Below are positions 1 to 57,820 of a DNA stretch of 64,000 nucleotides, one piece after another. Each line of letters opens with the position of its first letter. Position 1 is the stretch's first letter. This DNA is from Sclerodactyla briareus (Eukaryota; Echinodermata; Holothuroidea; Dendrochirotida; Sclerodactylidae), in assembly GCA_026419785.1 (NCBI GenBank), contig JAODTK010005578.1, positions 294,501 through 358,500 on the forward strand, written 5' to 3'. A program made the position numbers and the translations under genes. The notes beneath the pieces are model-generated. The model searched no databases. It saw nothing but the letters and a program-made list of their open reading frames with translations, and was not told where the DNA came from.

Positions 1-1290
1 GTACGGTATCGTGTGTCGCCAGGTCCGAGTGCGAGTACAGAATATTAGACTCGAGTATGAAGACGTACTCGATTGCTAACAGATTCATGGCATACTGGTC
101 CCATACCGAGGAATTGGCCTGAGGCCCGTAAAGGCCTTCATGTGTATAGGCTGACGTGGACTATCGTTTATGCCGGTAAGACAGGATTGGACGGAGGTTG
201 GGGTGGGTATATTAAAAAACGGCACGAGGGTGGGTAGGTTCGCGTCGTATTCAGTATTTTTAATACTTTAATCCTAGTATTAGAGCGTCGTCTCCTCGAT
301 TCGTCGATCTGTGACACGGGTCAAAGGGTTTAGCCCTGTCGGATGTCACTGCGTGTACCTGGGATTTTTTGCAGGTCATCGACTTCGAAGAACATCTTAC
401 TACTCCCATTCATCAGTTCTTACAATCATCATGTTGTAACCGGGGTGCATCGAGTGATAGAACCCCAACAGAATGAATTATCATGTGAATTAATAATCGA
501 ACGAAATGGGAGAATAAACGACGAACGTGAGTAACCCTGCTTATTATGCAAGTGGATTGCATACATGCCCCATTCAGTAAAAGATTCACCACATTTTTGA
601 TGGAATGGTGGGAATGGAAGTCTCTCACTCACTCACTCCCCCACCACTCACTTCACTCCTCCACTCCCTCATGCCGTAGGAGCAAGAAAGCAAGACACCT
701 AGCCGACATCCACCCGCCGTCCAATCGATGTTCACATGTCGAGGGAAAATAACAGCAAACAATGCACGCGTTGGAATTCTCTCAGGTTGTCATGAAAGTT
801 AGGAACCCACGTACAAACTTTGTGCGTAACGAATGTGGAAAAAAAAAAAAACAACTCACCGCGCGGGGTTCGAGTAAGTAATGCGAACAGTGCGTGTCAA
901 TCGCCTCACTCGGATGCCGGAGTACAAATCAAATCCGGATTTCCTATATAGACTGCATCAACTCTTTACTGCGAAAAACAAAATACAGTGGAATAGCGCA
1001 CCCTACTCGCGGCACACCACACCGAAGGCAAGATTGTCGACGTTGCAGACGTGCGTGGCCAGTAGGTATGGTAATGCGGGGAATGTGGGAGACAATCGAT
1101 CTGTAGCCTATCAATCTGAGCCCCCTTCTCAGTGGGGACGGCGATGAGACGAGAGAGCCGAAAAGGAATATGCTTTCCTTCATATGCACTTCTGAGCCTA
1201 TGAGAGGGAGCTTACCATTTCACCTTGATTGAAAATTATGCGAAGGGCCCTAATGACTTGCAACATGGTTTAGTTGTTCTGGTAATGCTT
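1..1290. other. Unannotated non-coding stretch
   Basis: I see no gene or clear repeat here. All reading frames are shorter than 90 codons and none resembles a known protein. A pyrimidine-rich tract built from CTCACT and CCACT steps lies at about 625-668, and an A12 run lies near 839-851. Confidence 0.5.
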
Positions 1291-1415
1291 GGAACCCAGA
1301 GGTTTTCGGTTTTTTTTACCTTTAGTTAAAGCTATTGTGACTTGCCCCCACCAGCCTACCTCTGCCCTAAAAGTAGGGAGGCCTTATCTGACAAACGCAA
1401 GCATTGCCAATCAAG

Positions 1416-2464
1416 TTCAAATTTGGCATGTTGATGTTGATGCGCCCAAAACCGCAAAAAAAAAAAAAATGTAAAAAGCAATCAATCCCATTGGCATGCG
1501 GGTCCAACATTAATCCCCCCCCCTTTTTTTGAAAAACTAGATGTAAATGGTACAAGGGATCATTTTCGTTCAATAATAATGATCATGTTGATTCGATGTC
1601 AACTAACAGGTCAATTAGTGGAAAACATAATTTAGTTTTCCATAACCTGCAATGTTATAAATGTTCCAGTCACGGTTGAGAGGTTCCCCATTGTGATTCC
1701 ATTAGATCGAACTACATCTGTGTGACAATTTATCTCAGAATTGACCCGCTGAACCATTCCCGTTGTTTTTGCATTTAATTTTTCAAATTTGCTGTTGATG
1801 TTGATGGGCCCAAAACCAAAGAAACGCTAAAACGCAACACTACCATCGACATGCGGGGTTTCCAAATTATCTTGAAAACTAGATGTAAATGGTCACAGGG
1901 ATTCATTTTCAAAAATAATAATCATGTGATTCGATGTCACTACAGGTCAATTAGGGGCAAAAAATAATTTAGTTTTCCATAACATGAAAATGTATGAAAT
2001 GTCCAGTCAAGGTGCGGAGGTACACCATTGCTGATCCATTAATCGAACTGCATCTGTGTGACATTTGATCTCACGATTGACCTGCTGCTAACCTAATGTC
2101 AAGTTGTTTGGCATATTAAGTTTTCAAATTTGGCATGTTGATGTTGATGAGGCCCAAAACCAAAGAAAAACGTAAAACGCAATCACTCCCATCGACATGC
2201 GGGTCCAACATTATCTTTTGAAACTAGATGTAAATGGTACAAGGGATCATTTTCAAAATAATAATCATGTGATTCGATGTCACTACAGGTCAATTAGGGG
2301 AAAAAATAATTTAGTTTTCCATAACATGAAAATGTTATGAAATGTCAGTCAAGGTTGGGAGGTACACCATTGTGATCCATTAATCGAACTGCATCTGTGT
2401 GACAATTTATCTCAGATTGACCTGCTGTAACCTATTCCAGTTGTTTGGCATATTAAGTTTTTCA
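1416..2464 (+). repeat. Tandem array of a ~341-bp unit, three copies
   Basis: Three successive units begin at about 1416, 1781 and 2122 with a shared start close to TTTCAAATTTGGCATG followed by TTGATGTTGATG and CCCAAAACC. Each unit then carries AAACTAGATGTAAATGG, GATTCGATGTCA, GGTCAATTAGGGG, TTTAGTTTTCCATAAC and GAACTGCATCTGTGTGACA in the same order. Unit lengths are about 365, 341 and 341 bp. The last copy ends at TTGGCATATTAAGTTTT near 2462. The later two copies are the most alike. The repeat order and spacing are read directly. A satellite or a locally duplicated element remnant are both possible, and no coding potential is visible. Confidence 0.85.
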
Positions 2465-2839
2465 TTGCCATTTTGGATCTTAGTACCTTCCGATAAAGAA
2501 AAAACAGTGGTTGTCGACCTTTGACATCAGTATGCGAAGTGATCGGGCGTCGAAATTTTCTTTGGGAGAATAGCACAGTCGTAGAGCATTGTCATGGGAG
2601 TTTTTATTCAGCATTTCGAACTGCATATAATGAAGAATTCAAAGAGTTATGAGGAGATCAAAAGGTCGAAGTCAATCTGGAAGAACGTTATTTTGGGAGA
2701 TATGGGCAAGAAAAATAGCTTTACCAGAATTTGAAATATTGTGTAAAGCTCTGTGTGTTCAATAGAGGAAACCAACCTGAAGGTTCACACCGGACACGCG
2801 GTTCTTGAGTTATCAGGGGCCACAACATCCCGAAAGAGA

Positions 2840-3900
2840 AGAATAACCAGATTTCTAAAGAATTCGCCCACAATTCTCTGAGACTGTTCTTGAACGATTC
2901 ACACTCTTAGACAGAAACACATCTTCGGAAGACTATTTTATTCATTATCACTCCTTGCGAGAAGACAATATTTACGAATTTCAAAATACAGCGTTTGCCA
3001 CGAAGTTGGAGGCAATGGCCCCTATTGGTGGTAACTTTGGGAACTCAAAGAAATAGTGAAAGGGAAAGGCTCTCGAATCCATGCCGACAAATGCGAATCA
3101 AATCACCTCGAATTCGTTTCAGCTTTATCGAAATTAGACTGAGATGCCGTCATCTTTCTCCGTAAGGTAAATCTCTAAGACAGTGAATTAATCTAGTGGC
3201 CCCTCCGATCCAAGGTTTCAATACTGCCGTATCTTTCGAGAAAACAAGAAATATATACTTGAACAGAATACTTCCAGGTGAGGTCTCACCAGCGGCTTAA
3301 ACAGCCTGACAACAATATCTTTATCAAGGAAGCTATCGAGCCTAGAATCCAATTACCTTCCCTCGCAGCTTTAGCACACACTGTTTAAAAGAGGTTCAAA
3401 GAGAATCAAAACTCCGAGATCCTTCGCCTAATTCACCCTGCTGGGAATTTTGCCCACCTTACTTGAAGAGCTTGCGATCGTGGACCAACAATGCATACCT
3501 TTGCACTTATCGGCATTGAAAAACATTTGCCAATGGAAGGACCAGTCCGGCGATTTATATCAAGATCCCTCTGGACAATGGCAACATCTTCGTTCGAAAC
3601 AACCTCCCGATACAACTTGGTATCGTCCGCAAACTCTTTAACTTTGGAATGCACAGAATCCTCAAGATCGTCAATAACAACGCCAAAAAAGGCACAATCA
3701 CCGATCCTTGGGGACACCACTAGTGACCTTTTGTCAAGAAGACGAACGCCCATTGATGACAACTCGTTGTTCCTCTATTGAGAGCCACTGACGAATCCAC
3801 TCAAGAACATTCCCCCTAACAGCCTAATGTCAAAACTTTTCAATTCAACATTCATGAGGAACCTTGTCAAAAGCTTTCTGGAAGTGCCCATGACAAATTA
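2840..3900 (-). mobile_element. LINE reverse-transcriptase relic, C-terminal half
   Basis: Read on the minus strand from about 3900 to 2840, this contains the C-terminal half of a non-LTR retrotransposon reverse transcriptase in several frames. It starts near a degraded AFDKVPH-type motif (about 3875-3855), passes VLEWIRQWLS and VVINGRSS (about 3815-3745), then the catalytic-site motif FADDTKLYREV in an open frame at 3433-3762. It continues with a RPHLEYC-like segment (about 3290-3255), RHLSLISIK and GDLIRI (about 3155-3090), and a degenerate thumb/tail region rich in RGKRC and ECESFKNSL-like matches to about 2860. Stops and frameshifts separate these pieces, so it is inactive. The 5' part (endonuclease and RT fingers) is missing, as expected for a 5'-truncated LINE. 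Motif style suggests the Jockey/CR1/L2-like group, but I cannot assign a clade. Confidence 0.85.
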
Positions 3901-17099: not shown

Positions 17100-18478
17100 T
17101 GCATGTACGGTAGGGTTGTGACAGACATCACATCCCAGCACACCCTTGTATGTACAATAACTCTTGTAGGTACGGTAGAGAGGTGATAGACAATACATCC
17201 CTGTACACTCTTGTATGTACTATAGGGATGTGATATAGATATCACATCCCTTCACACTCATGCATGTACGATAGGAATGTGATAGACATCACATCCCTAC
17301 ACACTCTTGTATGGACGATAGGGAGGTGATAGATATCGCATCCCTGCACACTCTTGTATGTACGATAGGGAGGTGATAGACATCACATCCTGCACACTCT
17401 TGTATGCACGATAGGGAGGTGATAGACATCACATCCCTGATACTATAGTATGCACGATATAGGGAGGTGATAGACGTCACATCCCTGCACACTCTTGTAT
17501 GTACGATAGGGATGTGATAGATATCACATCCCCGACACTATAGTATGCATTACGATAGGGATGTGATACTCATTCTTGCACGCTCTTGTATGTACCATAG
17601 GATGTGATAGACATCACATCCTGCACACTCTGTATATACGATAGGGATGTGATTGATATCACATGTCTGCACACTCCTGCATGTACCATAGGGATGTGAT
17701 AGACATCACATCCCTGCACACTTTTGTATGTACCATAGGAATGTGATAGATATTACATCCCTGCACACTCATGTATGTACCATAGGGATGTGATAGACAT
17801 CACATCCCTGCCCAACCCCCCCCCCCCCCCACCCCCCCCACTCGTGTATGTACCATAGGAATGTGATAGATATTACATCCCTGCACACTCATGTATGTAC
17901 CATAGGGATGTGTTAGACATCACATCCTGCACACTCTTGTATGTACCATAGGGAAGTGATAGATATTACATCCCTGCACACTTTTGTATGTACGATAGGG
18001 AGGTGATAGACATCACATCCCGCACACTCTTGTATGTACGATAGGGATGTGATAGACATCACATCCTGCACACTCGTGTATGTACCATAGGGATGTGATA
18101 GATATTACATCCCTGCACCACTCTTGTAGGACGATAGGGCTGTGATAGATATTACATCCCTGCACACTCGTGTATGTACCATAGGGATGTGATAGAATCA
18201 CATCCCTGCACACTCTTGTATGTACCATAGGATGTGATAGATATTACATCCCTGCACACTCATGTATGTACCATAGGGAAGTGATAGATATTACATCCTG
18301 CACACTCTTGTATGTACGATAGGGAGGTGATAGACATCACATAATAATAATAATAATAATAATGTCAATTTCTTATATAGCGCTTTACCACCGAAGTGCT
18401 CAAAGCGCTTTACAAACATCCCTGCACACTCTTGTATGTACGATAGAGATGTGATAGTTATCACATCCCTGCACACTC
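17100..18478 (+). repeat. Satellite array of a 47-bp palindromic unit
   Basis: Roughly 28 copies of a 47-bp unit run head to tail. The core of the unit is GGGATGTGAT-AGAC-ATCACATCCC, a perfect 10-bp inverted repeat with a 4-base loop, followed by TGCACACTCTTGTATGTACGATA. Units differ by small substitutions and by one-base indels: GACGATA/ACCATA, CATCAC/TATTAC, and GGAGGT/GGATGT. Variant types recur, which suggests local duplication of blocks. The array is broken once by a C run at 17816-17839 and once by a 73-bp insertion at 18343-18415. Minus-strand frames through the array read as short repeats and are not real proteins. Confidence 0.95.
18343..18415 (+). mobile_element. Short TAA-hairpin element inserted in the satellite
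   Basis: This begins with (AAT)n, then GTCAATTTCTTATATAGCGC, and ends with a hairpin whose arms are AGCGCTTT and AAAGCGCT around ACCACCGAAGTGCTC. The host satellite unit is interrupted between ATCACAT and CCCTGC. The tetramer ACAT is present on both sides (18339-18342 and 18416-18419), consistent with a 4-bp target duplication. The TAA tract plus AGCGCTTT hairpin is a form I associate with short interspersed repeats in marine invertebrate genomes, but I cannot name it. Confidence 0.75.
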
Positions 18479-29310: not shown

Positions 29311-29383
29311 TGGTCGGTGCGCTCAGTCGGCAGAGCACAGTGCTAATAACGCGGCGGCCATGGGTTCGAGCCCTTCCCGACTA
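29311..29383 (+). pseudogene. tRNA-Ile(AAT)-like module
   Basis: A 73-nt cloverleaf is still recognisable. The acceptor arms TGGTCGG/CCGACTA pair over 7 bp with one G-T. D-arm GCTC..GAGC is intact. The anticodon loop CTAATAA has anticodon AAT at 29345-29347, with 4 of 5 stem pairs. The T-loop TTCGAGC is conserved, but only 3 of 5 T-stem pairs remain. The known family pattern is tRNA-Ile. The damaged T-stem and the repeated context argue for a SINE head and against a working tRNA gene. Confidence 0.75.
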
Positions 29384-29515: not shown

Positions 29516-30550
29516 ACGAGACAGTATTTGAAACCTCTAACAGCAAATAAGGCTTGGCTTTAATGAAAACTTCCACAATCACTGAAAGGTATGAAACGAG
29601 GAAAAACTTCTAGTTTTCTTTTAGAATTAGAAATGCATTCTTTGTGTAGAGTCAATAGGCAGTATTGCATCTGTCCTCTGGCGCAATAAAAGACATAATG
29701 AGGGAGTACAACGTGCTCGCACTACAGATACTACTAATGGGAAGGAGGGTTTGCCGAATAGTCCACTTCATCTGCCCTAGTCTTTTTTTAATGAAAACCA
29801 TTATATCTTGAACCATAGTGATTTAATTCTTTCTTACCTTCCTGAACCCCAGATACGTCTGACGTTCGAGGTAAACCCCCATTTAAGTAGATCTTCTCAT
29901 TCTTTATATTTGATGGTTAAAGATTCAGTGCATGCAGGCACCACCTTCTACCATATCATGCTCCTTCACGATGATTGCAATAAATACATCGGCTCATCAT
30001 GTTAATATTCGGCTTCAAGAATACCTTTCGAGTTAATACCTTTCAAATAAATGCCATCGAGACTATATTGTAAGGTCCAATTGTTGATACCTGAAGGAGG
30101 AGGAGCACCGAGTACTCCTCGTGAATTACTCCAGAACTAGAATACACAAAGGCTTCTGAACCATTAGACTTTTAAATCATAAAAGAGGTACCGATTGTCC
30201 CCAGCAAAATAGCGCCAAGACAAGTTGAGTGAATTCTCAAGTTACCCCAGTGATCTGATCAAGCACTCCTGTATGATTAAAGATGTATTGTCGTCACGCG
30301 ACAAAATATCGTAATGTTCAGCACCATTCGTATATCGGAATCACATACTTTCAATATGTTATATCAATTTTATTTAGACGAAAAAATGCGTGAAATAACC
30401 CATTTGGGGGGGGGGGTTTCAATTTATCTAAATTGCTGGGTGCAGATATATTGTTTACAATTTATTTGAATTGCGACATCCCTCTTTATTTAGCATGCTG
30501 TGTCTGTTAAAACCCGGTCGCTCTTATTTCCATAGACCAACATAAGGCTT
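29516..30550. other. Unannotated non-coding stretch
   Basis: No gene or recognised repeat is seen. A G10 run lies at about 30408-30417. Confidence 0.4.
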
Positions 30551-30554
30551 CGAT

Positions 30555-31070
30555 AAGGCCGATTGGGTTTTTAGCTGCGGTAGACGGCCTCTACAAGTCA
30601 CCATCATCTCTCCGCCGTCCGTTCGTATTAGTATGAGGTTCTTTCAATTGTTTGTTAGTTGCGTCGTTAGTTTTTCTCCGTTTCGTTCGTCCCGAGCTAT
30701 TCTCCATTCCTCATACCTTCTAAACCGACCTGCGCTCAGGTTCAAACTTGGTGGGTGGGTGCAGCTCCCCTGGTCAGGGCATTGCATTTTTTGTTGGCGG
30801 ATTGTGATTAATGTAATTGAAATCCAATTATTACTCAATTAGTGCCTCACAGTCATTATTCCATATAGAGTTCTTGCGTGCTGTGGGTTGACAAGCTCTG
30901 CAGTCAGCATGACTCTCCGTCCGTTCGTTAGTTCGTCGTTAGTTCTTTCGTTTTCCTTCGATCCGATCAGGTAAACTGGTGGGCGGATGAAGCCTGCCAC
31001 TAAGTTACATTTTTTTATTCGCATAGTTTGATTTTAATTACCTCCAATTGAATTACCCCAATTAGCGTCT
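30555..31070 (+). repeat. TCCGTTCG interspersed repeat, two monomers
   Basis: Monomer 1 (about 30568-30850) runs TTAGCTGCGGTAGACGGCCT, CTCCGCCGTCCGTTCG, TTAGTTGCGTCGTTAG, CCTTCTAAACCGACCTGCGC, AAACTTGGTGGGTGGGTGCA, GGGCATTGCATTTTTTG and AATTGAAATCCAATTATTACT. Monomer 2 (about 30875-31070) repeats the order in shorter form (CTCTCCGTCCGTTCGTTAG, GGTGGGCGGATGAAGCC, TTACATTTTTTTATTCGCAT, AATTGAATTACCCCAATTAG). Relatives lie at 53800-53955 and, reversed, at 59125-59470. No coding potential is seen. Confidence 0.7.
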
Positions 31071-38079: not shown

Positions 38080-38745
38080 AGCGAACCGCGATTAATATCA
38101 GAGATTGATTGTGATGGATAGGTATGCTACTATTGCTATTGTCAGGGATTGATTAGGGTAGGTGGCATACCCATTGTTATTGTCAGGAGTTGATTAGAAG
38201 AAATGTTGTAACTATTGCTAATGTCAGGGATTGATTAGAGTAGGTGTCAAACCTATTGTTAAAGTCTGGGATGATTAGGAGACATGTTGTGACTATTGCT
38301 AATGTCAGGGACTGATTAGAGTAAGTTGTCATACCGACTTGTATTGTTCCAGGACTTAAGTAAGTAATAGGTAAGTATAAAAATTTTTGATAGTTATCAT
38401 GAAATGAATAAGATAATAAACTGGACTACAAGCTCAACTAAAAGATTATGAAAATAAATGGTTATCTCTGTGGGGTCCAAATTCAGCAGTTTGATACAGC
38501 AGATTGGTTAGAAGAATGTTGTAACTATTGTTCTTGTCAGAGATTGATTAGAGCTGGCATTGTACCTATTGTTATTATCAGAGATTGATTTGAATAGACG
38601 TTGTACCTATTGCTATGAGAGATTTATTGGAGTAGGTGTTATACCAATTGCTATTATCAGGAATCGATTATTGTAGGTAATGCACCTATTGTTATTATCA
38701 GAGATTGCTCAAAGTAGTTAATGTACCCATTGCTTTGATAGTATT
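38080..38745 (+). repeat. 41-bp tandem repeat with alternating monomers
   Basis: Monomers of about 41 bp read GGATTGATTAGAGTAGGTGT then (C/A)(T/A)ACCTATTGTTATTGTCAG (type A) or GTTGATTAGAAGAAATGTTG then TAACTATTGCTAATGTCAG (type B). In 38140-38345 the order is A-B-A-B-A. The array is broken at about 38346-38497 by unrelated sequence and resumes to about 38745 with more diverged monomers. Confidence 0.85.
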
Positions 38746-53795: not shown

Positions 53796-53955
53796 ATCTT
53801 CTTAGCTGCGGTCGGGCAGCTCTTCGAGTCATTCTGTCCCTCCGTCCGTTCGTCCGTTCGCCACATAAGTACATAACTTCTAAACCGTACAGCTGTCAGT
53901 TGAAAACGTGGCTGATGTGTGCAGCTCGCTGCTGGCCAGGGCGGGTTGCATTTAC
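53796..53955 (+). repeat. TCCGTTCG repeat, left portion interrupted by the fold-back-like element
   Basis: TTAGCTGCGGTCGGGCAGCT, CCCTCCGTCCGTTCGTCCG, AACTTCTAAACCGTACAGCT and CTGGCCAGGGCGGGTTGCAT parallel the monomer at 30568-30800 in order. The monomer stops at GCATTTAC. Its expected downstream sequence appears at 57751-57820. Confidence 0.7.
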
Positions 53956-53989
53956 TACGGAGCGCGAAACGTAACAAAAATCATTGAAG

Positions 53990-54170
53990 TTGGAATCAAC
54001 CCAGCGAAAAAAGAATCAACCCATCGGAAAAAGAATCAACCCATCGGAAAAAGAATCAACCCATCGGAAAAAGAATCAACCCATCGGAAACAGAATCAAC
54101 CCATTGAAAACCGAATAAAGCCTTCAAAGGAAGAATCAACTCATTGAAAGAAGAATCAGCCTCCTCCAAA
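53990..54170 (+). repeat. ~20-bp tandem repeat in the left inverted repeat
   Basis: About eight consecutive copies of AAGAATCAACCCATCGGAAA run head to tail. The first four are nearly identical and the last four diverge (CATTGAAA, CTTCAAAGG). The right arm at 57615-57722 carries the inverse of the same repeat in fewer, more diverged copies. Confidence 0.9.
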
Positions 54171-54260
54171 CATAATCAGTCACTTCATATAATACTCCTA
54201 ACTCCTACCCTCCACCTTAACAGGATATTCATTGTATAGCCGTGCTCCGTTAAGTGTGAT

Positions 54261-54291
54261 ACACTCCGCGCTGTCCTGGTGCGCGGAGTGT
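54261..54291. other. Perfect 11-bp hairpin in the left inverted repeat
   Basis: Arms ACACTCCGCGC and GCGCGGAGTGT surround a 9-base loop. The right arm of the element has the related hairpin CACTCCGCGCA/TGTGCGGAGTG at 57472-57500 with one mismatch. Both copies retain pairing although the loops differ (TGTCCTGGT against CCCGGAC), which argues for an origin as a structured terminus. Confidence 0.85.
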
Positions 54292-54649
54292 AGCAAAATC
54301 ATCAAGAAATGGAATCAGACCATCAAGATTTAGAATCGATCGTCCAAAGACAGGAAAGGGTGGTCCAAACTGGAATCATGGGTCGAAAACCGAAACAGGG
54401 TGTCAAAACCAGAAGTGAACTATCAAGAAAAGCAAAGAACGCAACCCTGCGTAATGATTCCTTTTCGCAATATTTGTTTACCTTCTTCTTCTCCAATTGA
54501 ATGACACACAACAATCGGCAGTTTTTTTGCCATTTTGGCTAGTAGCACATTTTAGGGAAATGTCTGGATTGTGCTGTCGAGGCAAAGAGGATTATTACAC
54601 CCCTTATCAGTAGCTCTAGCCCTTTCAATCTACAGGATCAGGGGAGCAT

Positions 54650-54960
54650 TATATGCAATAGCGTGGTGGTGAAGGAGGTGGAGGAGATGAATGAGAAGGG
54701 GGTGGGACTGTTTGGATCAGTGACTGTAGAGGTTGGGTGAGATGGATGAGAGGGCTAAGGCGCGTCAAAGAAACTATAAGGAGGTGTGGAGATGAATGTG
54801 AGTAAAAGGGGAGGGTGGTTATGCTGGTTGAAAGGGGAGGGTGAGAAGTGAGTACATATAGCGAGTGTAAAGTGAATCACGGCGGCGAATATTGATGAGA
54901 GTAGGTAATAGAGTGGGTGTACGCAGTGGAGGTGGATGCGAAGAGGGTAGTCAGAAAATA
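54650..54960 (+). repeat. Purine-rich G/A tract inside the fold-back-like element
   Basis: The plus strand is heavily biased to G and A for about 300 bp, built from recurring GATGAATGAGAAGGGG, GGTTGGGTGAGATGGATGAG, GGTGTGGAGATGAATGTGAG and AAAGGGGAGGGTG steps, suggestive of a decayed repeat of about 70 bp. No gene is seen. Confidence 0.6.
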
Positions 54961-57434
54961 AGATTACCAGTATCTAACCCGAATGACTAATACATTTCGT
55001 AGAGTGAACAACACTCTACATGTACTTAACAATTGGACCTCATTTAACAGAAAAAATTATGTAATGGAGGGACGATTACAATAGACACTACGACAAATGG
55101 CCTATTTTCGCATATGGGACAATTCCACGACAACCCGCACCTCGGCCAGGTCATTACATCCTGTTCATATGGCAATGCCATCAGCTATGTATTTTTGAAC
55201 CTATGCAGTGCACAACAGTGGCGCCAGCGGGGTGCAGGGGTCAGTGAGAGACCCCCACCCCCCCCCCCCTCCATCGGGGGATATTTCCATTTTCTGTCGG
55301 TAGCCCGAGAGGGAATGCTAAAATTTACACACCTCGACGAGTGCCGTTGCCCCGACAGTAATATAATTTTCAACCTATAGGCCTGGTGAAAAATCGTATA
55401 TTAAAGTCTGGAAATTCGCGCGCCTCATATCTGATATCTTATTCCTTCGCTTAAGTTTAAGATAAGTATATACATCCACCTAACATCCTACAAACATACA
55501 ACCGTAGCCTAGGCTGTACAAGTCTTATGATTCTTTGGAATGTCCCTGGGAGAGATCATTGTTATAATTCTGCTGTGACTCTTCCTTCCCGAAGAGTTTA
55601 CCACTGTTTTGCCTGACAGCAACATCAACAGCAAAATTAGAAAATGAAGGTGTTGACATAGGGGATAGGGTAAGACTCGAAAATCTTTGATCGTCCGGAC
55701 ACTCCGTCGGGGAAATTTTCTATTCTCGCCTCTCCCCCCCCCCCTCCCCAACCCCTCCGCCACCACTGACAGTGCATCGTGAATTCGTGCAATACTGGCC
55801 TATTTGACACTTGTATGGACTTCACTTGTGTTAAACCTGTAGTCATCGAGTGATTGCTGTATCATTCGGTATCTTTTCATACATGCCTGTACACACATCA
55901 GTGAAAGTGGAAGAGTGTGTTAATACTAACAAGTAACTATGACCCCTGGAATGTTGAATTTGTACTCCTTCCTGGATGGATTAGGCTACCTAAATACAGG
56001 TAATGAATCAATAATATGGTAGTGCTCTCTGGGTCTGTTATTTCTTTGGTGTAATTTCATGATTACCTAATCTGATATGCCACATATAAGAAAGCATCCA
56101 CATGGAATGGAATTTGTGCATGTTGACAAGCTAAAACGGTCGAAAAAAAGTTTTCTGATGTCCCTTATTCCTCAAAATTTTGACCCTTGGTCTACACCAA
56201 AACAACACACATAAACTGTCCAACTTGACACACCCTTTCATTCTGAACAACAACTATTCTTACTCAACTCATTGGAGGATATCATGTTTTTGTCTCGACT
56301 GAACAGAATTCCGAAAGGCTCAGTGTTCACTAGTCGTATATGTGGTATGTCACACTCCCTTCTAGCCGGACATTCCTCCAACGATCCAACAGATTACAAC
56401 AAAATTGTGCGATAAACACCTGACATACGTGTAGAACTGACTATGGACCCCAGAGAGACCTTCATTTATAGAGCTCATTAGAATTTCCAGCCCTTCGACG
56501 GTGGACAAGTAAACTGGCCGATCGGCCGGTTCCAACGACATATAAAAATCAAGCCGCTTTCCCCAAGGGAGCATCTCCTTGGACCACTTGGTATTTGACC
56601 TTGAAGTGTTTCAATTGTACGCGACGGTGGAGAGGCTAATAACTTGACAAAAATGAAATTTTTGGAGGAAGTAGTATGGGTCTATATTTTTTCTCAGAAA
56701 ATTCTCATAGGAAACCGTAACATACGGCAGTCATCGTCGTCCCGACAATGGGAAATATTTCAAAGATCCACTTTTCAAACTTGAACGGATTTCATATAAA
56801 CTTTGAGTCTGTCGTTTTCAGTCGAAATTGAACAGATTTTGATCATTGAAACGTTTATTTCAATCTACTATTCGCCAGAGATCCGACAATGAAAATGAGC
56901 GAATGCGAATATTCCAATCATTTCAATGATAAAATAATAACTTCCCAGTCCGCAGTAGAAACCACAAGATTGTGGCACCTGTTGTTTAAGAAGGAGGGTC
57001 ATTAGCTATGTCACTCGGTCAAGGGCGAGGTTGTCTGAGATGTGAAATTATACAACATTAGAAAGGCGCTAAAAAAGAGCATGTCTTCCATGCCTTCGCC
57101 TGAATACAAATACAGCAAGAACGGGACAAACCAAGACCTAATCGGCCGAGTGTGATCCGATGACAATGTGAGGTCATTCGTTCCCTGATAGACGTATATA
57201 CAACGCCCTAATTATTCAACCAACACTACTATTTGCCCAATTACCATTTTAAAATAGACTGACAAGAAGGTAAGAAACAAAACCGCTCCTCGCCTTGCAA
57301 CATAATCCAGACATTCCTCCAAAAAATGTCCTATTAGCCGAGAGAACATGGCAAAACATTCCCAATTATGTAACTCGCATTCGATCTTAGGAATCACCCT
57401 TTCAAGGAATCACTACGCAAACTGCGTTCCAAAT

Positions 57435-57750
57435 CCTGATAGTCTGATTCTATCCTTGATGATTTTTGTTTCACTCCGCGCACCCGGACTGTGCGGAGTG
57501 TATACCAAGGAACACGGCAATACAATGGAAATCCTGTTAAGGTGGAGTCATGGAGTATCATATGATGTACTGATTCTTGTTTGGATAGGCTAATCCGCTT
57601 TTCATGGTTGTTATTGTTTTCGTTGAAGGCTTGATTCTGTTTTCGATGGTGATCCTTTTTCGAGGATGATTCTTTTTTCCCCGATTGTTGATTCTTTTTT
57701 CGCTGGGTTGATTCCAACTTTGATGGATTTGTTAGGTTTCGCACTCCGTA
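57435..57750 (-). repeat. Right inverted repeat of the fold-back-like element
   Basis: On the minus strand this reads from the terminus (TACGGAGTGCGAAAC, 57750 inward) through the AGTTGGAATCAACCCAGCG block, 20-bp-type repeats, AACAGGAT (inverse near 57535) and the CACTCCGCGCA hairpin, to AATCAGACTATCAGGATTTG. The order equals that of 53956-54345. Confidence 0.8.
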
Positions 57751-57820
57751 ATTTTCGCTCGCGTAGTATGGTTAGATTTCAATCGAATCCAATCGATTAA
57801 CTCAATTAGCTTCCCCATAG
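57751..57820 (+). repeat. TCCGTTCG repeat, right portion resumed
   Basis: ATTTTCGCTCGCGTAGTATG, GTTAGATTTCAATCG and AATCCAATCGATTAACTCAA followed by TTAGC align with TTATTCGCATAGTTTG, ATTTTAATTACC and TCCAATTGAATTACCCCAAT followed by TAGCG at 31014-31066. This completes the monomer that stops at 53955. Confidence 0.6.

Follow-up and report, generated by a model that had tools for sequence, protein, structure and literature searches.

A decayed, probably non-autonomous DNA transposon family with IS3EU-like ends and compound, tandemly repeated arms in Sclerodactyla briareus

We analysed a 64,000-nucleotide stretch of the genome of the holothuroid Sclerodactyla briareus (assembly GCA_026419785.1, contig JAODTK010005578.1, positions 294,501 to 358,500; the whole stretch is hereafter called the window) and found that the element lying at its positions 53956–57750 is a non-coding DNA transposon, which is present at more than 50 places in the host genome. 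This element is probably a decayed copy of a non-autonomous family of cut-and-paste transposons of the IS3EU type, the class being read from the terminal sequences and the length of the target-site duplication only, because a transposase carrying these ends was not found with the rva_4 profile. The parts of the window copy, together with the empty site to which its flanks could be aligned, are as follows.

30712–30857, forward strand: empty site, a paralogue of the host repeat lacking the element (from the joined-flank alignment)
53950–53955, forward strand: left target-site duplication ATTTAC, equal to the right copy at 5 of 6 bases
53956–53970, forward strand: left terminus TACGGAGCGCGAAAC (15-mer with Y, 102 in the assembly; reversed control pattern, 0)
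53956–54335, forward strand: left outer inverted arm, comprising the outer end module, the 20-bp units, the hairpin and the start of the inner end module (from the inverted-arm alignment)
53993–54158, forward strand: 8.3 tandem units of 20 bp with the consensus GAATCAACCCATCGAAAAAA
54261–54291, no strand: hairpin ACACTCCGCGC-loop-GCGCGGAGTGT, with its counterpart at 57471–57501
54280–54440, forward strand: inner end module, copied from the outer one and diverged from it (limits approximate, transferred from the consensus)
54441–57426, no strand: non-coding interior common to other copies, containing a nested insert (limits approximate)
56483–57045, no strand: later insert of about 563 bp, absent from the consensus (from the comparison of copies)
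57427–57750, reverse strand: right inverted arm (from the inverted-arm alignment)
57471–57501, no strand: hairpin of the right arm
57736–57750, reverse strand: right terminus, reverse complement TACGGAGTGCGAAAC
57751–57756, forward strand: right target-site duplication ATTTTC

The limits of the element given in a preliminary description of this DNA (53956–57750) proved exact to the base, and each arm has the module order proposed there, i.e. terminus, 20-bp units, hairpin and inner segment. The near-identical termini that it named were also found, as TACGGAGCGCGAAAC at 53956–53970 and GTTTCGCACTCCGTA at 57736–57750. Inverted alignment of 54033–54335 with 57427–57714 gave 77% identity over 312 columns (E 2.75e-50), and the tandem units were more decayed in the right arm than in the left (3 versus 8 by motif count). 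A match to the hairpin within 8 edits of its 31 bases was detected in 31 of the 36 arms of 18 copies with both termini intact. The later insert in the interior (56483–57045) is accompanied by an imperfect 7-bp duplicate, CATTAGA / AATTATA, and no match to it was found in the other DNA fetched up to that comparison.

The hexamers on the two sides of the element, ATTTAC and ATTTTC, which had been pointed out as possible duplicates, are a 6-bp target-site duplication with one mismatch. When the same comparison was made for the 18 copies, 6-bp flanks agreed at 5 or more of 6 bases in 12 of them (6 perfect), compared with 3 of 306 mismatched-pairing controls (1 perfect). Only the 6-bp register stood out among the 18 copies, with lengths of 4, 5 and 7–11 bp at background except in L021, which has a perfect 7-bp duplication; the copies failing the 6-bp test were L016, L020, L021, L023, L024 and L025. 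In the 8-bp register none of the 18 copies reached 7 of 8 bases, and duplications of 8, 9 or 10 bp were seen in none of them when one mismatch was allowed.

The element is inserted as one unit into an older repeat. In the joined-flank test, the element and one duplicate were removed and the rejoined flanks were compared with the window; the joined flanks aligned across the junction to 30712–30857 (110 of 154 columns, 71%, E 1e-10), i.e. to a relative of the older repeat that lacks the element, indicating a single nested insertion. As a control, the true left flank was joined to random right flanks, and the junction was crossed in 1 of 200 joins; this one matched its own neighbourhood because its right flank happened to start at 54028, a position within the element and close to the left flank. 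The eight control alignments listed against 30712 all end at base 198, which is the junction. For the 17 other copies, no junction-crossing match of the joined flanks was found in the window or in the loci fetched up to that comparison. The earlier claim of one insertion event is thus upheld by the paired arms, the paired duplications and an empty site that has neither arm. Regarding the repeat monomer TCCGTTCG, which had been described as broken by the element, the older repeat is indeed continuous over the break, as the alignment of the joined flanks indicates, but this sequence does not lie at the break; it was found at 53845–53860, about 100 bp away. The diverged copy of the host repeat that lacks the element, at 30500–31050, contains TCCGTTCG at 30618 and, some 300 bp farther, at 30920.

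The family is dispersed over the genome. The assembly searched comprised 319,486,128 bases in 3171 contigs, in which the 15-mer TACGGAGYGCGAAAC was found 102 times (58 forward and 44 reverse), whereas the reversed control was absent. Among the 100 exact ends that were listed out of these 102, 18 inward-facing pairs of 1.0–5.8 kb were obtained, the window copy included. These pairs are the 18 copies referred to throughout, which were chosen by that 15-mer and have both 15-bp ends intact. No exact partner lay close to the other 64 of the 100 listed ends, in part an expected result of mutation in the partners. Arms occurring mainly as solo insertions had been named as the outcome that would speak against a single paired element; instead, family interior adjoined the arm at 36 of 38 search loci (L001–L008 and L029–L058, with some places represented more than once) and at 16 of the 19 probes lying 340–640 bp inside single ends (a twentieth lay beyond its contig). 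The three probes that missed the interior were those on C1919, C1842 and C2047, of which C1919 looked empty beside the arm and nevertheless carries a paired copy that has taken up a 2.1-kb insertion. On C111 no partner was present within 9.6 kb, and C755 was covered for 1.5 kb only. The C111 locus (L028) was rejected as an autonomous partner: family interior is absent, and its long frames resemble reverse transcriptase rather than transposase by eye.

One homologous interior was found in the fetched copies, in both orientations and mostly at 71–81% identity (range 69–84%, all-against-all), L023 having almost no interior to compare; differences in copy length accompany insertions and deletions. 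A majority sequence of 3161 bp was derived from 15 of the 18 copies after orienting them, L010, L011 and L023 being excluded because of large rearrangements. It replaced a first consensus of 12 copies that had not been oriented and that gave only 75–80% identity. The copies were 83–93% identical to the oriented majority sequence, and it is in this sense that the family is old, its copies lying 7–17% from that sequence. No open frame above 116 codons was present in the consensus, and the longest stop-to-stop frame in the 18 single copies had 192 codons. A deletion of consensus positions 480–782 with identical breakpoints was shared by 10 fetched loci, which count as nine sites, L016 and L043 being the same place, and the same region was undeleted in 28 locus identifiers (several the same place twice). 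Because one deletion recurs at many sites, the shortened form itself seems to have moved.

The IS3EU-type reading was adopted because the TACGG..CCGTA ends and the 6-bp duplication match the published signature of that class. IS3EU elements have TA..TA ends and usually 6-bp duplications, according to passages of PMC10045372, and families in rust fungi are described in part of PMC12730594 as having TAYGG..CCRTA ends, inverted ends that exceed 30 bp in length and target duplications of 6 bp. In the present family, TACGGAG..CTCCGTA ends were found in the 18 pairs, which were themselves chosen by that 15-mer, the TAYGG form being that of the fungal families; a 6-bp duplication and inverted ends longer than 30 bp were both found as well. 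The family is therefore like IS3EU and GingerRoot elements, whose DDE transposases are related to IS3/IS481, in these three features so far as the cited passages describe them. It is unlike IS3EU in that its ends exceed 330 bp and include tandem units, a hairpin and a further end module, and in that a transposase was not found with the rva_4 profile. A search with this transposase-like profile (PF24764) gave five integrase-like matches at four places (L062, L063, L064 and L066), all of them fragmentary or decayed. Within about 3 kb around each of these places there was neither a family terminus (up to 3 mismatches) nor a match to the consensus, and within 9–9.5 kb around three of them matches to the consensus did not exceed 20 bp. 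In the DNA around these three places, a scan for TA..TA ends with 6-bp duplicates yielded a single weak candidate, at one of the three, with agreement at 11 of 16 bases. These places were therefore rejected as the autonomous partner, since none carries the ends of the family.

The arms are compound. In the consensus, the outer inverted repeats are 333 bp long and 97% identical, and beyond them inverted similarity persists at lower identity to about 620 bp; in the single copies, the matching arm piece was at least 225 bp in 15 of 18 (52 bp in L024, 30 bp in L023 and none in L011). The terminal module of the consensus, from base 4, could be aligned in register, 20-bp periodicity included, with the stretch that starts in the hairpin over about 158 columns, and the first part of this alignment scored 42 compared with a maximum of 22 in 300 shuffles, indicating that the arm contains an end within an end. 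Array size varies widely among copies. Ordinary left arms have about 4–8 units by motif count, and arrays of 13 and 65 units were found on C3160 and C3053, respectively. In L059 (C3085:135044-138661) the left array, at 339–2877, consists of 127 units of 20 bp with 99% matches, and nearly all of the interior has been lost. These copies are the satellite-like and fold-back-like extremes of one family. An apparent minimal derivative, L082 (C2191:207593-207893), consists of roughly 470 bp of arm with a 37-bp right terminus immediately after it.

Could the two arms be unrelated inverted repeats, or independent solo arms that face each other by chance? The 2 of 38 loci and 3 of 19 probes without family interior beside the end would fit such an account, but 18 inward pairs with paired target duplications and a common interior, and an empty site having neither arm, make it exceedingly improbable. 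An unlikely account, too, is a true fold-back element of the TU, FB, Galileo or Tetris type, in which tandem-repeat arms surround an arbitrary middle. The long arms with tandem units, the arrays of 65 and 127 units, the almost complete loss of interior in L059 and the very short copy L082 at C2191 all resemble that architecture, but the interior is homologous among the fetched copies, and because the copies have this common interior the family is not fold-back in the strict sense. The fold-back-like label of the preliminary description hence applies to the long inverted ends with tandem repeats and not to the middle, which the fetched copies have in common. That description had also drawn a comparison with the TU elements of sea urchins, which have long inverted ends with short tandem repeats and an 8-bp duplication; with a duplication of 6 bp, the present element does not belong to them. 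Galileo, likewise, has other ends and another duplication length than this family.

A sea urchin paper of 1983 is cited in PMC4079207, passages of which concern Tetris, a fold-back element of Drosophila virilis. Tetris is like the present family in having long ends, a variable-number array giving rise to satellite-like DNA and no coding capacity, and differs in its units of about 220 bp, its 8–10 bp duplications (against 6 bp here) and a middle that varies in composition and size (PMC4079207). Galileo, a member of the P superfamily, is similar in its long, internally repetitive ends, for which passages of PMC3688188 propose transposase binding sites in the end repeats from the binding of a THAP domain, and different in having a P-type transposase with that domain. 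The group with which fold-back elements have chiefly been associated is Mutator, Galileo being among the exceptions (passages of PMC4079207 and PMC3688188). The third alternative to the IS3EU-type reading is a non-autonomous derivative of another class with 6-bp duplications, for example Polinton/Maverick-like or Dada-like, which we regard as improbable although no transposase with these ends was found. Polintons have AG-like ends and are 10–20 kb long, and the majority sequence is without a long reading frame. Duplications of 6 bp are made by Polintons too, as a passage of PMC10045372 states, but TACGG..CCGTA ends are of the IS3EU form (PMC12730594, in part).

On the IS3EU-type reading, an IS3EU transposase made elsewhere would have cut the ends of the element and linked them to target strands with a 6-bp stagger. 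By analogy with Galileo, the inner end module and the 20-bp units might act as extra binding sites for that transposase; the number of units could have changed through slippage or unequal exchange, which would give the satellite-like arrays of some copies. The window copy would then have gained its insertion of about 563 bp and decayed. A tentative proposal, to which we give slightly less than an even chance, is that the fold-back architecture evolved on IS3EU ends by duplication of a complete end module inside the arm, with a hairpin between the two ends, the 20-bp units, perhaps binding sites, serving as a nursery of satellite DNA. Satellites partly similar to IS3EU elements have been described in an oyster (PMC8268682) and a beetle (PMC5844308), as far as passages of these papers tell.

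The ends, together with the target duplication, fit a known but little-studied class of transposons, for which compound arms would be a new feature. In literature on IS3EU, GingerRoot and foldback elements, covered by titles and the beginnings of abstracts and with Repbase outside the scope, no such family was described among the matches listed. With its IS3EU-like ends, such a family would show that fold-back architecture arose independently in a lineage related to IS3/IS481. Its stepwise anatomy, with arms of 97% identity, similarity fading to about 620 bp and a second end module, may be read as a record of how transposon ends grow, and the range in array size, from a handful of units up to 127, would make the link between a transposon end and satellite DNA directly testable.

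Several other features were noted in the window and in the fetched DNA. A tandem array of 46–47 bp units at 17160–18342 comprises about 25 copies with higher-order periods of 94 and 139 bp, two arrays of 41-bp units lie at 38130–38707, and a 337-bp tandem unit is repeated 2.7 times at 1533–2461. In L069, positions 1196–3660 are of low complexity and open in several frames, among them frames of 806 and 803 codons consisting nearly entirely of Phe, Ser and Leu, which are surely not coding. At 29312–29383 of the window there is a weak match to the tRNA family (31.5 bits versus a threshold of 29), where ARAGORN reports none.
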